Positions 2,557-5,865 of a DNA stretch of 5,865 bases are shown here, in pieces. The notes below the pieces were generated by a model. That model saw only the letters and a program-made list of their open reading frames with translations, was not told where the DNA came from and made no database searches. A program made the translations under genes and the position numbers. The stretch is from an uncultured Verrucomicrobiales bacterium. Its GTDB lineage: Bacteria > Verrucomicrobiota > Verrucomicrobiae > Limisphaerales > CANJSG01. Each line of letters opens with the position of its first letter. The first letter of the stretch is position 1. The stretch lies in NCBI GenBank assembly GCA_946480965.1, contig CAMLMI010000313.1:1-5865 (forward strand), written 5' to 3'.

Positions 2557-2609
2557 TCACCGGGCCGCAATGGTTGTGCCCGTATTGATTGGCTAAGATC
2601 GAGTGCGCT

Positions 2610-2846
2610 GTCGAAGTCCACAAGGGATTGGAAGCTGAGGATGCTTCTGAAGCCACCTGTGGTTGTAGAAGGTCTCGATCGAGTCGAACACGGCCGCCCG
2701 GACCTGGGCCCGGGTGGCGAAGCCCGTTTCGGGCACGGCTCCGGTCTTGAGGGTCGGGCAGAAGCCTTCCAAGGCAGCATTGTCGCAAGGGGTGACGTTG
2801 CGCCCCATGCTGGCTACGAGCCGTGCGGTTTCGAGGGCGCGACGCG
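2610..2846 (-). pseudogene. IS3-family transposase (OrfB) C-terminal remnant, frameshifted
   Basis: Only the tail of the DDE integrase domain remains. The translation LVASMGRNVTPCDNAALEGF followed by TLKT aligns with the common IS3 OrfB pattern (SMSRKGNCWDNA, ESF, LKTE). The catalytic Glu is in the DNAALEGF segment (codon at 2767-2769), with Lys seven residues later. It continues through ATRAQVRAAVFDSIETFYNHR. Past the YNHR the expected ending appears in another frame as LSFQSLVDFD, so a 1-nt insertion or 2-nt deletion lies at about 2640-2650. The upstream two thirds of the transposase, including both catalytic Asp residues, are absent; at the other side the sequence passes straight into rtcA. 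The exact joint (about 2845-2862) and the trpF-side end of the element cannot be placed by eye, and I did not find terminal inverted repeats. It is non-functional. Confidence 0.85.
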
Positions 2847-2849
2847 GCC

Positions 2850-3293
2850 GCTCCCCCGGAGTCCCATCCGGCACAGCAAGGGCAGGAACGCCGCCTGGAT
2901 GAACGGGAACGGCGGCGCGAAGGGATTGTGCGTCCCGCCTTCCAGCACGACCTCGCTCGGCCCGTCGGCCAGGAGCAACGGCGGCAGGATCGTCTGGAGC
3001 AGCAGCATCGTGCTGCCCGCGCTGCCGATCTTGAATTCGTGCGCGCCCGGCACGATCGGCCCGGGCTCGAAGGTCAACGCCGTGGAACCCAGCGCCGCCC
3101 CGTCCACCGCGGCCGACCCGATGCGCGCCGCCGCCTCCACGCAGGCCAGGTGCTGGCGCATGAGACCCGGCTTGGGCCGCCGCGCCCGGATGCGGTCGAT
3201 CCGGAACGGCCGCCCCGTGACGAGGCTCAAGGCCAATGCCGACCGCAGGATCTGCCCGCCGCCTTCGCCTTGGGATCCGTCGAGGGTGATCAT
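2850..3293 (-). pseudogene. rtcA: RNA 3'-terminal phosphate cyclase, truncated after about 144 residues
   Basis: RtcA uses ATP to turn RNA 3'-phosphate ends into 2',3'-cyclic phosphates. The start ATG at 3291-3293 gives MITLDGSQGEGGGQILRSA, which aligns at once with the start of E. coli RtcA. Further matches are RPKPGLMRQHL, LGSTALTFEPG, KIGSAGSTMLLLQTILP and LADGPSEVVLEGGTHNPFAPP. Similarity ends around FLPLLCRMG (near 2862), after which the frame enters transposase DNA and stops at 2814. The family is about 340 residues long, so over half is missing, including the inserted subdomain and the C-terminal catalytic His (His309 in E. coli) that carries AMP. The remnant should have no cyclase activity. 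It starts 7 bp after the stop of the DUF5677-like gene, so the two were probably translated from one message. The remaining part is well conserved, which suggests the break is fairly recent. Confidence 0.93.
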
Positions 3294-3300
3294 GGATTTG

Positions 3301-4482
3301 CTAAGATTGGTCAGGAGCATCGCTTGCGCTCTCCTTAGATTTCCGAATCCAAGTTTCGTAGAGTTCATCCGTTCTCCGCAATCGACCCAAGAGATCTTCG
3401 ATTCCTGAGATCAGCACTTGGCTTTCATTTACGCTTTGGAAATACCGATTCATGTAGTCCTTAAGGCCATCGAGGACAAAGGCCGCAGCAGGTAGGAAAA
3501 ATGCTGGGGTTTCGGGCGAAAAATCGAAGCATCCTCCGTAACGCCCTTCATTGATGTTTAAGTGGTATGTGACCAGATCCACCCAGTCGCCATGGACGCT
3601 GTGGGAAGGGATCCGTTGAAGGCTGCAGTATCTCTCCTCAATACTCAGATGCTTCAGCTTCTGTTTCATTCCCGCTCCCCAAGTCTGATGTCCCGGCAAT
3701 ACTTTCTCGATTGGGACTCCAGATATTCGACAGGTGTCGTGGATATGTTCCAGAATCCGCTCTTCAATCGGAACTAGGCATCCTCGGGCGCCTGAAATCT
3801 CCGTCACGAGATCGAAAAGCTCTCTTTCCGGGCCAAGACTCGAGTTCACAAATTTGTCGAAGAGGGAGGGATCGTTCTTCGAGATCAGAAACCGCAGGTT
3901 AACGATGCTTTCACTGATTGAACGAAGGAGAATTAAGTTCGCCTCAAGACCATTGCCTGTCGACCCGAGGCGGCACACCGCCGACATCAATTTGCAGGTT
4001 CGGACCAGAATGCCTACGCAGATTGCTTGGTCTCTTTCGTGAGGAAAATCGGCCCGGGCCGTCGCGAGATATGAACCAGCACCAATCAAGACGAACTGCA
4101 TCGCTTCCTGAAACAGATCGAAAGAGAGCTTTGTGAATTCATCCCTCCGTTCGAATTTGGAGATATCCTGCTCGTTTACCGGCGTAGGTTTTGGAGGCTG
4201 CATTTGGGTGGAATCTAGTTTGGCTGATTTCGCCTGATCGAGTTCTAGCCTAGCCAAGAAGCGGGCCATCGTTCGGACCTCTTGGTTGACGGTCTCGAAA
4301 ACAGGTTCTGCATTTGGGTCGAGCTTTACGGCCGACAACGAAGCGGCTGTCCGGGGACAATCGCTTGAAACTTGGAAGCGTCCTTCCCGTATCCGTTTGA
4401 AGAGAAGGCGAACGCATGCCTCTTCAAACTCAGTTTGCGGGTCTTTTGGTGAAGAGATTTTGTGCATGGCTTGTCCGAGCAT
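3301..4482 (-). CDS. DUF5677-like helical protein of unknown function, probably acquired
   Basis: The protein has 393 aa from the ATG at 4482 and is rich in predicted helices, with no signal peptide or clear membrane segment. Residues 115-310 carry an arrangement I associate with DUF5677-type proteins: a long helix with LLRSISESIVNLRFL (about 185-199, Arg187 and Glu191), then SHSVHGDW (293-300) with two His. That assignment is from memory of the pattern and is tentative; no activity should be inferred. The frame is open to a GTG at 4521, but this codon lies inside the upstream terminator hairpin, so I chose 4482, preceded by GGAACGG; the ATG at 4467 is also possible. Base composition differs from the neighbours: three hand-counted lines gave 43, 55 and 58% GC against about 68% in purF. 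It sits between slipin and rtcA with only 7 bp to rtcA. This suggests insertion by transfer into an existing RNA-repair locus. Confidence 0.8.
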   Translation of the reverse strand: MLGQAMHKISSPKDPQTEFEEACVRLLFKRIREGRFQVSSDCPRTAASLSAVKLDPNAEPVFETVNQEVRTMARFLARLELDQAKSAKLDSTQMQPPKPTPVNEQDISKFERRDEFTKLSFDLFQEAMQFVLIGAGSYLATARADFPHERDQAICVGILVRTCKLMSAVCRLGSTGNGLEANLILLRSISESIVNLRFLISKNDPSLFDKFVNSSLGPERELFDLVTEISGARGCLVPIEERILEHIHDTCRISGVPIEKVLPGHQTWGAGMKQKLKHLSIEERYCSLQRIPSHSVHGDWVDLVTYHLNINEGRYGGCFDFSPETPAFFLPAAAFVLDGLKDYMNRYFQSVNESQVLISGIEDLLGRLRRTDELYETWIRKSKESASDAPDQS

Positions 4483-4512
4483 CAGCTTGCCGTTCCATCT
4501 TTCGCTACCACG

Positions 4513-4545
4513 AAAAGCCACGCGGCCGTCATCCGGCCGCGTGGC
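4513..4545 (-). terminator. Rho-independent terminator after the slipin gene
   Basis: A perfect 12-bp GC-rich stem (4517-4528 with 4534-4545) closes a 5-nt loop. On the minus strand it is followed at once by TTTT (4516-4513). It starts 12 nt beyond the stop codon of the slipin gene (TAG at 4558-4560), the classic place for an intrinsic terminator. It implies that genes further on (DUF5677-like, rtcA) need read-through or their own promoter. The short T-run (4, then CG) may make it leaky. Confidence 0.8.
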
Positions 4546-4557
4546 CGTGGTCCCTGA

Positions 4558-5337
4558 CTAGGACGAACCTCCGTCCGTCTTGGGCTTGTTCCGGTCCGCC
4601 TCCTTGGCGACGGGCACAAATCCGTTCGGCAGGCCCCAGACGAAGGTGCTGCCGGCTTGGCCGGCGGTAGCCATCGTTTGGAGCAGGCGCAGGTTTTGGA
4701 GCGCTGGGTTTCCCTCCAGCATCTTGGCCGCGTTGGCCAGGTTGCGGAGGGCTGCCGTCTCGCCCCGGGCGCGCTCCAAGGCGGCGAGGCCTTCCTGCTT
4801 CGCCTTGAGCACCTCGCCGAAGAGCTTCTTCAGCTCGCCGGGCAGCATCACGTCCTTCACGGCCAGCGCGGAGAGGGTGACGCCGATCTTCTCGGCTTCG
4901 GGTGCGGCTTGGGCAAGCAACTGGGCTCCGATCTCCAGCCGCTTCTCCAGCAGTGTCTCGGACGGCTGGGCCGCGATGACGGAGCGGAGGGCGAGCTGGA
5001 CGATCTGGTAGAGGCTGTCGTGCCAGTTCTGCACTTCGTGCAGCGCCTTCACCGGGTTGGTGAGTTGCCAGGTGAGCGCGAGGCTGACCTTCAACCCGAC
5101 GTTGTCGGACGAGAGCACTTCCTGGCCGGAGAGGGTCAAGGTGGCCTTGCGGAGATCGACGCGGTGGATGGCGTGCCCGGTTCCCCAAAGGCGGCGGCGT
5201 CCGGCATCGAGACGACGGAGGAAGCGTCCGTGGCGGTAGAGCAGCACGCATTCGTAGTCGGCCACGGCAAGGCGCCGGACGAAGCCGGGCAGCTCGCGGG
5301 GCGTCTGCGTCTGCAGGAAGAGAAAGTCGGTGTTCAT
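4558..5337 (-). CDS. Slipin / SPFH (band 7) domain protein
   Basis: This stomatin-prohibitin-flotillin-HflK/C family protein has 259 aa from the ATG at 5335-5337. The SPFH core spans about residues 24-195: VADYECVLLYRHGRF, then GQEVLSSDNVGLKVSLAL (71-88) and the slipin-like WQLTNPVKAL, then VKDVMLPGELKKL. A helical tail follows with GETAALRNLANAAKMLEGNP, close to the ETAATRSLLNTAK pattern of bacterial slipins. The usual N-terminal membrane hairpin is absent (MNTDFLFLQ is too short and polar), so it is probably cytosolic or peripheral. SPFH proteins oligomerise into rings or scaffolds; no client is known here. As I recall, slipins recur in RtcR-controlled RNA-repair operons, and the nearby rtcA, sigma-54 element and RtcR-like start support that role. 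The open frame reaches back to 5412, but the extra 25 residues are Arg/Pro-rich and overlap the structured leader, so I reject that start. No Shine-Dalgarno is visible. It is followed by an intrinsic terminator. Confidence 0.92.
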   Translation of the reverse strand: MNTDFLFLQTQTPRELPGFVRRLAVADYECVLLYRHGRFLRRLDAGRRRLWGTGHAIHRVDLRKATLTLSGQEVLSSDNVGLKVSLALTWQLTNPVKALHEVQNWHDSLYQIVQLALRSVIAAQPSETLLEKRLEIGAQLLAQAAPEAEKIGVTLSALAVKDVMLPGELKKLFGEVLKAKQEGLAALERARGETAALRNLANAAKMLEGNPALQNLRLLQTMATAGQAGSTFVWGLPNGFVPVAKEADRNKPKTDGGSS

Positions 5338-5368
5338 GTTCAGATTGTTCGTTGTGGTGGGCCGGCAA

Positions 5369-5449
5369 CCGGGCTCCGCGTATCCACGGCGGGAAGGGAG
5401 TTCCCTTCGCAAAGCCGCTTCATCGCTGCGCCGAAGCGCCGGAGCCCGG
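5369..5449 (-). ncRNA. Structured leader RNA, multi-hairpin part
   Basis: Two perfectly complementary 10-mers (CCGGGCTCCG and CGGAGCCCGG on the minus strand, at 5449-5440 and 5378-5369) can close a domain of about 80 nt. Inside are a GCGC-TTCG-GCGC hairpin with a C(UUCG)G tetraloop (about 5438-5427) and a 6-bp hairpin GAAGGG-AACT-CCCTTC (5408-5393). It lies between the sigma-54 element and the slipin ATG, ending about 30 nt before the start codon. It could be a small RNA of its own, a translation control element, or chance pairing in GC-rich DNA. I cannot assign an RNA family. Confidence 0.45.
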
Positions 5450-5453
5450 ATGC

Positions 5454-5520
5454 CGACCGTTGATCGGGCTTCGAACCCGGTCGGATGGTGAGTCCGATTA
5501 CCAGTTGCTGATCCGTCGAT
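5454..5520 (-). ncRNA. tRNA-like stretch in the slipin leader
   Basis: Read on the minus strand, a perfect 5-bp stem TCGGA/TCCGA with 7-nt loop CTCACCA (5497-5481) resembles an anticodon arm; loop position two is T, and positions 3-5 would be CAC. It is followed directly by CCGGG-TTCGAAG-CCCGA (5480-5464), which has the standard T-loop sequence and four of five stem pairs. A D-arm-like segment ACTGGTAA with a GG pair lies just before (5505-5498). It is not a normal tRNA: the variable loop is missing, no 7-bp acceptor stem forms at the right distance (only CGAC/GTCG and GATC/GATC with bulges), and the D stem is abnormal. A tRNA mimic or decayed tRNA is the reading I favour. YrlA-type Y RNAs in other RNA-repair operons carry tRNA-like domains. 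Confidence 0.45.
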
Positions 5521-5583
5521 GCGCAGGACCGGTTGGGCGACTGCCGCCGGCTGCTGGGTTCGGTGTCAGCATCTCTCCCATTC

Positions 5584-5598
5584 GCAATGGCCGTGCCA
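5584..5598 (-). promoter_or_regulatory. Sigma-54 (RpoN) -24/-12 promoter for the slipin transcript
   Basis: The minus strand reads TGGCAC-GGCCA-TTGC, an exact match to the core TGGCAC-N5-TTGC, with GG at 5597-5596 (-24) and GC at 5585-5584 (-12). The expected start is near 5573, giving an untranslated leader of about 235 nt before the slipin ATG. Sigma-54 promoters need an activator ATPase. The gene starting divergently at 5833 looks like RtcR, which is such an activator, so promoter and regulator fit each other. Position, direction and sequence agree. Confidence 0.85.
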
Positions 5599-5740
5599 AC
5601 CGGCTGGACGGGCGAAAAGCGGTGGAATCGGGCCTGAAACCGAAGTTTGGTCAGGGAGTGGCGGAACACGATGACGCGAATAAGCGAAGGAGCGCGCTTT
5701 ACGGCGATGAGCAACCGAAGGCAGGCTAACCCCAAGGTAG

Positions 5741-5832: not shown

Positions 5833-5865
5833 ATGAAAAAGACCGTTGTGATCGGGACGTTGGGC
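5833..5865 (+). CDS. rtcR: Transcriptional activator RtcR, N-terminal 11 codons only
   Basis: The frame ATG AAA AAG ACC GTT GTG ATC GGG begins at 5833 and runs off the window edge, giving MKKTVVIGTLG. E. coli RtcR begins MRKTVAFGFVGTVLD, so the first residues agree in pattern (MxKTVxxGxxG). RtcR is a sigma-54 enhancer-binding protein: an N-terminal CARF-type sensor domain that responds to RNA ends, a central AAA+ ATPase and a C-terminal helix-turn-helix. Eleven residues alone would not identify it; the call rests on their combination with the divergent sigma-54 promoter and the rtcA fragment behind it. No strong ribosome binding site is visible (TTGGA lies only 2 nt before the ATG). Confidence 0.7.
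   Translation, partial: MKKTVVIGTLG

Follow-up and report, generated by a model that had tools for sequence, protein, structure and literature searches.

A candidate structured RNA with a reduced tRNA-like segment upstream of slipin in an RNA repair setting of Verrucomicrobiota

RNA repair by RtcR/RtcAB is controlled by broken tRNAs. For SPFH/Band-7 proteins in RNA repair, Burroughs and Aravind reportedly proposed in 2016 a 'novel tRNA-like molecule' as the cognate RNA. The RNA described here fits that description: it is tRNA-like, lies within an RNA repair operon and adjoins an SPFH/Band-7 gene. An RNA of a similar kind had thus apparently been predicted already. Set against that outline, the only basis of this comparison, it differs in that its tRNA-like part in the DNA studied has neither a D stem nor an acceptor stem. 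No description of an RNA partner for the SPFH branch of RtcR/RtcAB repair was found in the open literature searched, outside which Burroughs and Aravind 2016 lay. YrlA and other bacterial Y RNAs are likewise modular, carry a tRNA-like domain and occur in the RNA repair operons of some bacteria, whereas the present RNA has no Rfam match and is found with slipin in place of Ro60. RtcR has been reported to bind tRNA 5' halves with a cyclic phosphate (PMC7790460). The rtc locus of Pseudomonas aeruginosa is reported to include an SPFH gene (PMC13086221), and in Anabaena a slipin gene and rtcB are reported to rise upon deletion of a tRNA-operon repressor (PMC10272220).

The DNA analysed, hereafter the window, is the whole stretch of 5,865 nt from an uncultured Verrucomicrobiales bacterium. 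It contains purF, trpF, a truncated rtcA, a gene for a DUF5677 protein, slipin, and the start of a divergent rtcR. The genes around the leader and the promoter box were as follows.

2814 to 3368, minus strand: rtcA (RNA 3'-phosphate cyclase), first part of the domain only (PF01137, profile positions 2-139 of 221).
3301 to 4521, minus strand: DUF5677 protein gene between slipin and rtcA (Pfam scan).
4558 to 5337, minus strand: slipin, an SPFH/Band 7 protein (PF01145, E 8e-27), with its ATG at 5335-5337.
5584 to 5598, minus strand: sigma-54 (-24/-12) promoter box TGGCACGGCCATTGC, with the expected transcription start at ~5572.
5833 to 5865, plus strand: first codons of a divergent gene (MKKTVVIGTLG), rtcR by comparison, cut by the end of the window.

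The peptide MKKTVVIGTLG was near-identical to the start of the Pfam-confirmed RtcR in a related locus (L001; loci are given as L and genomes as G numbers), and the window had both a -24/-12 box and a divergent rtcR, as expected of an RtcR/sigma-54 regulon. The RNA repair setting of the leader was given by the rtcA fragment and the rtcR start in the window, and by rtcA/rtcB or Hen1/Pnkp-like genes in relatives: slipin was followed by rtcA and then rtcB in L001 and L002, by rtcB in L007, and by Hen1, ankyrin and Pnkp-like genes in L004. The DUF5677 gene was missing in L001 and L002, where only ~150 nt lay between slipin and rtcA. By eye, the truncated rtcA adjoined an ORF resembling the end of an IS3-type integrase (2593-3368, minus strand; no Pfam match). 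Since rtcA is truncated alongside this integrase-like end, the repair operon in the genome of the window may be broken, and the truncation together with the lack of rtcB within the window likewise suggests that the operon may be decayed. Elsewhere in the window, a long, near-perfect inverted repeat lay between purF and trpF (1744-1849), where Rfam microRNA matches were weak and far below their cut-offs. In an alignment inspected by eye, the hydrophobic N-terminus of the L008 slipin was absent from the slipins of the window, L001, L003, L004, L006, and L007, which may therefore be soluble.

The box TGGCACGGCCATTGC agreed at 11 of 11 specified bases with the sigma-54 -24/-12 consensus. By convention, the sigma-54 start site lies 12 nt beyond the final base of the box, and the start was placed in this way at ~5572, leaving a leader of ~235 nt before the slipin ATG. 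A sequence-only reading of this DNA had proposed a structured leader of about this length between the promoter and slipin, and the proposal held: the leader folded at -107.4 kcal/mol against a mean of -87.9 for shuffled sequences (z -4.17), and 0 of 200 shuffles were as stable. Both hairpins that the same reading had singled out, an anticodon-arm-like one and a TTCGAAG T-loop hairpin, were found where it had put them, separated by one base. From its 5' end onward, the RNA was resolved into the following parts.

5360 to 5571 (about), minus strand: candidate conserved structured RNA with a tRNA-like segment, from a covariance model match (R1, below), covariation and leader identity.
5561 to 5571, minus strand: 5' strand of helix P1 (UGCUGA..CCG), from the MFE fold and a permutation test over 15 loci in which the window itself was weak.
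5523 to 5554, minus strand: P2 hairpin, GCAGCC...GG-UC-CUGC, with a 2-nt UY bulge, from canonical pairing across loci.
5506 to 5515, minus strand: 3' strand of helix P1 (CGG.UCAGCA), from the MFE fold.
5498 to 5505, minus strand: single-stranded ACUGGUAA, D-loop-like with no D stem, from the sequence.
5481 to 5497, minus strand: anticodon-arm-like hairpin UCGGA-CUCACCA-UCCGA with the loop CUCACCA, weak on its own.
5465 to 5479, minus strand: T-arm hairpin CGGG-UUCGAAG-CCCG, from motif rarity and covariation.
5364 to 5454, minus strand: 3' domain, a junction with an outer stem, a GCGC hairpin and a UUUGCGA..UCCCGC arm, from compensatory changes.

Judged by these features, the leader looks like a conserved structured RNA of ~210 nt, the case for which rests mainly on covariation. 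In an RtcR/sigma-54-driven transcript it would stand at the 5' end and fold into a discrete RNA of three parts: a 5' domain in which P1 encloses P2, then the reduced tRNA-like segment, and last a junction domain on the 3' side, with slipin ~25 nt on.

We built covariance model R1 from L004, L006, and L007 only (Verrucomicrobia), leaving the window out. R1 matched the window at 5447-5576 with 58.2 bits (E about 2e-14), and it also found L003, L008, L001, and L002; all five, the window included, had E values of 2e-14 to 2e-7, and each lay upstream of slipin. The upstream motif was common to seven of ten slipin relatives in genome contigs (L001, L002, L003, L004, L006, L007, and L008), in the order CAGCAGYC, hairpin, GGUYCUGC, T-arm, and multi-hairpin 3' domain; among the other three, L005 begins inside slipin and L009 and L010 gave weak or no R1 matches. 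The blastn match ended a little upstream of the box, at 5604. Two sets of Verrucomicrobiota genomes, 387 and 146 in number, were searched with slipin and gave matches in 9 and 8 genomes. Through them further loci were added, L122, L131, L132, and L134 by R1 and L123, L124, and L133 by R2, a second model that had been trained on 12 sequences. When R1 itself was run over the 387 genomes, with 9 candidates scored per genome and hence not as a census, it gave two matches, of which the one in G001 was real; the other, in G148 (26 bits), was rejected as it had neither P2 nor T-loop.

The pairing in each part was then compared across loci, with L002, a near copy of L001, left out of the P1, P2 and T-arm counts. 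In P2, all 102 of 102 pairs were canonical over 17 of 20 distinct loci, a result reached by 0 of 20000 permutations, or by 6 of 20000 on the 7 unique rows. The variants were GCAG/CUGC in ten loci, GCAG/UUGC in L133, GUGG/CCAC in L122 and L124, and GCGG/CCGC in L123, L137, L149, and L151, and the two-base bulge was carried across GCAG/CUGC and the variant forms. P2 could not be placed in L120, L121, and L143. The sequence CCAGCAGCC resembles the 530 loop of 16S rRNA; this identification was dropped because the P2 bases change with compensation in relatives. For the T-arm, 55 of 60 pairs were formed on 12 unique rows (1 of 20000 permutations; L133 failed the T-arm rule). The strands of P2 and the T-arm came from loci in which they had been located by search pattern or by eye (T-arms with at least 3 of 5 pairs; P2 of L149 and L151 by eye), and both sets of counts are therefore partly circular. 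The 3' domain could be aligned for 10 of the 20 distinct loci. There, 15 of 25 pairs had compensatory changes, 96.8% of cells were paired versus 80.2% after shuffling, and 0 of 500 shuffles reached the native values on all five measures, with the structure derived from the same alignment; sliding the partners destroyed the signal. The support for P1 is a family-level result. In a register-constrained test over 15 loci, none of 20000 permutations attained the summed score. The window itself scored just 3 and was equalled or bettered by 26 of 28 swaps, owing to an internal loop in its P1. As unconstrained duplexes, native P1 strands had a mean of -16.8 kcal/mol versus -12.9 for swapped ones; the duplex of the window was equalled or exceeded in stability by 12 of 28 swaps.

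These data bear on whether the RNA could be a decaying remnant, that is, a tRNA gene trapped in the leader and drifting with no present function. The window lacks the D and acceptor stems while some relatives keep them, and the rtcA downstream is truncated, as such a remnant would have it. Drift is however hard to reconcile with the compensatory changes, and the leader was about as conserved as the slipin gene: identity of the window leader to L001, L002, and L003 was 81.0, 80.5, and 83.8%, compared to 84.2, 83.5, and 82.9% for slipin DNA. We therefore consider a remnant very improbable.

The tRNA likeness of the window segment was partial, in that ARAGORN found no tRNA in the window and Rfam, searched at E up to 10 with the tRNA (RF00005) and Y RNA models included, found nothing in the leader. 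The T-arm was the best-kept part. Among 5000 dinucleotide shuffles of the leader, 33 had a T-arm with 4 bp and a TTCRA loop; in the whole window, both strands included, this motif occurred once. The anticodon-like hairpin taken alone was not unusual in the window (p 0.27), and it is notable through its place and its counterparts in relatives. Conservation of both arms in relatives, the outcome by which the sequence-only reading had wished to be judged, was obtained for the T-arm, which covaries (with the selection bias noted above), and weakly for the anticodon-like arm, with a combined p of 0.004 over 18 loci, of which only 4 were individually below 0.06. More complete forms were seen elsewhere. 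A full D-arm was recognised by eye in L122-L124, L132, L143, L149, and L151; L122 (47.2 bits) and L132 (41.5 bits) matched the whole Rfam tRNA model above its cut-off of 29, and L124 matched model positions 7-64 with 38.6 bits. In the RtcR loci L149 and L151, ARAGORN placed a cloverleaf (Leu tag and Leu cag) in the interval from the sigma-54 box to slipin; judged by eye, it follows a 5' domain that AUCGACUC/GAGUCGAU closes. This cloverleaf has a short variable loop, unlike true tRNA-Leu. At the other extreme, L140 (the place of L121) had a box and slipin and no recognisable T-loop, and inspection of L131 by eye showed P1 and the T-arm with no further arm in between; tRNA likeness therefore cannot be strictly required. 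The tRNA mimic is unevenly kept across loci.

Compared to known RNAs, the segment shares the T-arm with tRNA, whose whole model L122 and L132 match, and differs from it in being embedded between 5' and 3' domains, in falling below detection in the window and in its variable anticodon. With tmRNA it shares a T-arm-like segment within a larger RNA, and weak tmRNA matches were seen in L134 and L123, but these span 18 model positions and are far below the cut-off. Rfam 15 scans gave no family for this leader RNA. A Y RNA or Ro-binding RNA, which had been put forward from the sequence, found no backing in the searches: no Rfam Y RNA model matched the window at E up to 10, and the Pfam scan detected no TROVE protein among the six window ORFs scanned. 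YrlA too is reported to pair a tRNA-like domain with an RNA-repair operon (PMC8394870). L008, however, carries Y-RNA-like matches beside its copy of the RNA. Its island (L008:1-8636) comprises 11 tRNAs, Ro60, the RNA, slipin, a CAAX protease-like gene and an HNH gene, with three YrlA-like matches and one of Deinococcus type, all below cut-off, separate from the RNA copy. A Y RNA or Ro-type RNA is hardly credible given these results. Near the RNA and tRNAs of L132, a stretch at 3486-3750 matched GOLLD RNA with 63 bits (cut-off 150; cut by the end of the locus).

The variable loop of the anticodon-like arm was further examined for a role as decoy or feed-forward sensor. Anticodon nucleases whose attack triggers RtcR would cut this loop, so that tRNAs would be spared or further cyclic-phosphate ends would be made that bind RtcR. 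Seven-base loops with U at the second position were present in the window, L004, L006, L008, L123, L124, L149, and L151, and by eye in L143, and the L149 loop CUUAGAA carries UAG. The 5' half of tRNA-Leu(UAG) is reported to have bound RtcR best of three tRNAs tested, but the same source, in its part on Salmonella, reports fragments of the tRNA-like YrlA as undetected (PMC7790460). Moreover, the hairpin is statistically weak and its loop varies in sequence, being shorter, longer or otherwise different in L001, L003, L007, L122, L132, L133, and L134. We regard a decoy or sensor as unlikely. A more elaborate form, to which we give slightly less credence still, is a sacrificial tRNA mimic whose loop would be cut in the attack that activates RtcR, shielding tRNAs and yielding a P1/P2 5' fragment with a cyclic phosphate that would keep RtcR on, with the slipin message split off. 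If true, tRNA repair would have a feed-forward switch encoded in RNA.

We then investigated RtcR loci in general. PF06956 matched in 65 of 387 genomes, at 69 RtcR places. The survey covered 55 of these and set aside 12 partial matches and 2 places that lay too close to the end of a contig. Of the 55 loci, 45 had a box agreeing at 9 or more of 11 bases, and slipin was divergent in 6, one of which, L139 (genome G001), was the centre of the survey. Under a single rule (TTCRA loop, a stem with 4 or more of its 5 pairs, at most 350 nt from the box, or within the first 700 nt where the box was absent), a T-arm followed the promoter in 5 of 6 slipin loci versus 8 of 49 others (p 0.002). With the stricter stem of 5 pairs, the numbers were 4 of 6 and 4 of 49 (p 0.003). 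An earlier comparison of T-loop motifs (5/6) with ARAGORN tRNAs (3/49; p 9e-5) mixed two rules and was discarded. Among the six slipin loci, the models recognised L139 (R1) and L143 (R2, E 0.019), and L144 only at E 0.28; L149, L151, and L121 gave no model match, L149 and L151 being placed by eye plus ARAGORN. In the 46 RtcR loci that lacked both slipin and an ARAGORN tRNA, no R2 match had an E value under 0.4. L202, L205, and L206, three more RtcR loci, had no slipin, nor did R1 match there, and the promoter of L202 leads, by eye, to an rtcB-like frame. Of the 8 T-arm loci that lacked slipin, 3 were ARAGORN tRNAs, in L155, L166, and L175. RtcR-type sigma-54 boxes precede these tRNA genes (Asn in L166, Trp in L175, Leu in L155), the tRNA of L175 beginning close to where transcription is expected to start. 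This arrangement suggests that RtcR may also switch on tRNAs.

The position of the RNA relative to the promoter stayed within a few bases where both could be measured. The box lay 26-31 nt ahead of the P2 helix in the window, L001, L002, L003, L004, L006, and L007, and with P1 positions read by hand, P1 began at about -1 to +5 of the expected start in all 7 of the 7 loci having both box and P2 (P1 being short in L001 and L002); L120 and L121 had a box and no P2 to measure from. RtcR was Pfam-confirmed in L001, L004, L006, and L007 and seen by sequence in L003 and the window. No sigma-54 box was found at the corresponding place in the nine other loci scored (L008, L122, L123, L124, L131, L132, L133, L134, and L137), of which L008, L123, L131, L132, and L133 had other tRNA matches nearby. 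The RNA stays with slipin even in loci lacking the box at that place. In 11 genomes, R1 gave exactly one match in 9 and none in G244; an extra match in G002 was a plain hairpin and was not accepted.

The association with slipin raises the possibility of a cis-acting 5' UTR element with no job in trans. Through it, the state of tRNAs would govern the translation of slipin or the stability of the mRNA, for instance when a tRNA-modifying or tRNA-cutting enzyme binds the T-arm. In the accepted loci the RNA lies directly upstream of slipin, its end in the window being only ~25 nt from the ATG; with no terminator or processing site demonstrated between the two, a pure 5' UTR is possible. Furthermore, all R1 matches accepted in the 11 genomes lay by slipin, which is partly built in, as most loci were found through slipin. 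The architecture, however, persists whether or not a sigma-54 box is present and across differing distances to slipin, and the start codon of the window lies outside the conserved fold. A cis element is a possible explanation, though on the whole a doubtful one.

Beyond Verrucomicrobiota, the RNA family may reach Actinomycetota. On the Tsukamurella plasmid L137 (3690-3982), P2 and then a T-arm lie upstream of an SPFH gene, probably forming a related RNA; the scores were E 0.05 and 5.6 with R1, and E 0.004 for P2 with R2. With the L008 slipin as query, 677 plasmid and 4 phage records were found to contain distant SPFH genes, and of the three plasmid records inspected only L137 had P2 and a T-arm upstream. 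The L007 slipin found nothing in plasmids at 1e-30. Queried with the SPFH genes of L137 and L124, the searches returned only the query itself and one distant record (L169), where an R2 match (E 0.002) was judged to be chance, lying ~700 nt from the SPFH gene. In viral contigs, the P2 pattern gave 98 stretches, none with a T-loop plus the 3' motif (L070 had a loose T-loop only), and a slipin alignment search gave no relative.

Taken together, the RNA is, with moderate confidence, most likely the cognate RNA of slipin in tRNA repair, derived from an RtcR/sigma-54-driven transcript. Being driven in this way, it is expected to be made upon tRNA cutting: when tRNAs are cut in the cell, RtcR would switch the transcript on. 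The RNA would be released from this transcript and act with slipin, an SPFH oligomer that would hold its 5' and 3' domains. The tRNA-like segment between them would serve as a tRNA surface bringing RtcA/RtcB, or the Hen1/Pnkp-like enzymes in L004, to broken tRNAs. An RNA cofactor of a slipin repair scaffold is the simplest reading, and its role would be analogous to that of Y RNA with Ro60.

What is added here beyond the molecule that Burroughs and Aravind reportedly proposed is a structure, an expected transcript start and a reduced tRNA part. The RNA is found in rtcR operons and, in L008, close to tRNAs, Ro60 and Y-RNA-like matches, which suggests a translation-repair module of wider scope. 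With an RNA that has boundaries, helices and covariation at a putatively damage-induced transcript start, the idea of an RNA cofactor for SPFH proteins, parallel to Ro60 and Y RNA, would become directly testable.
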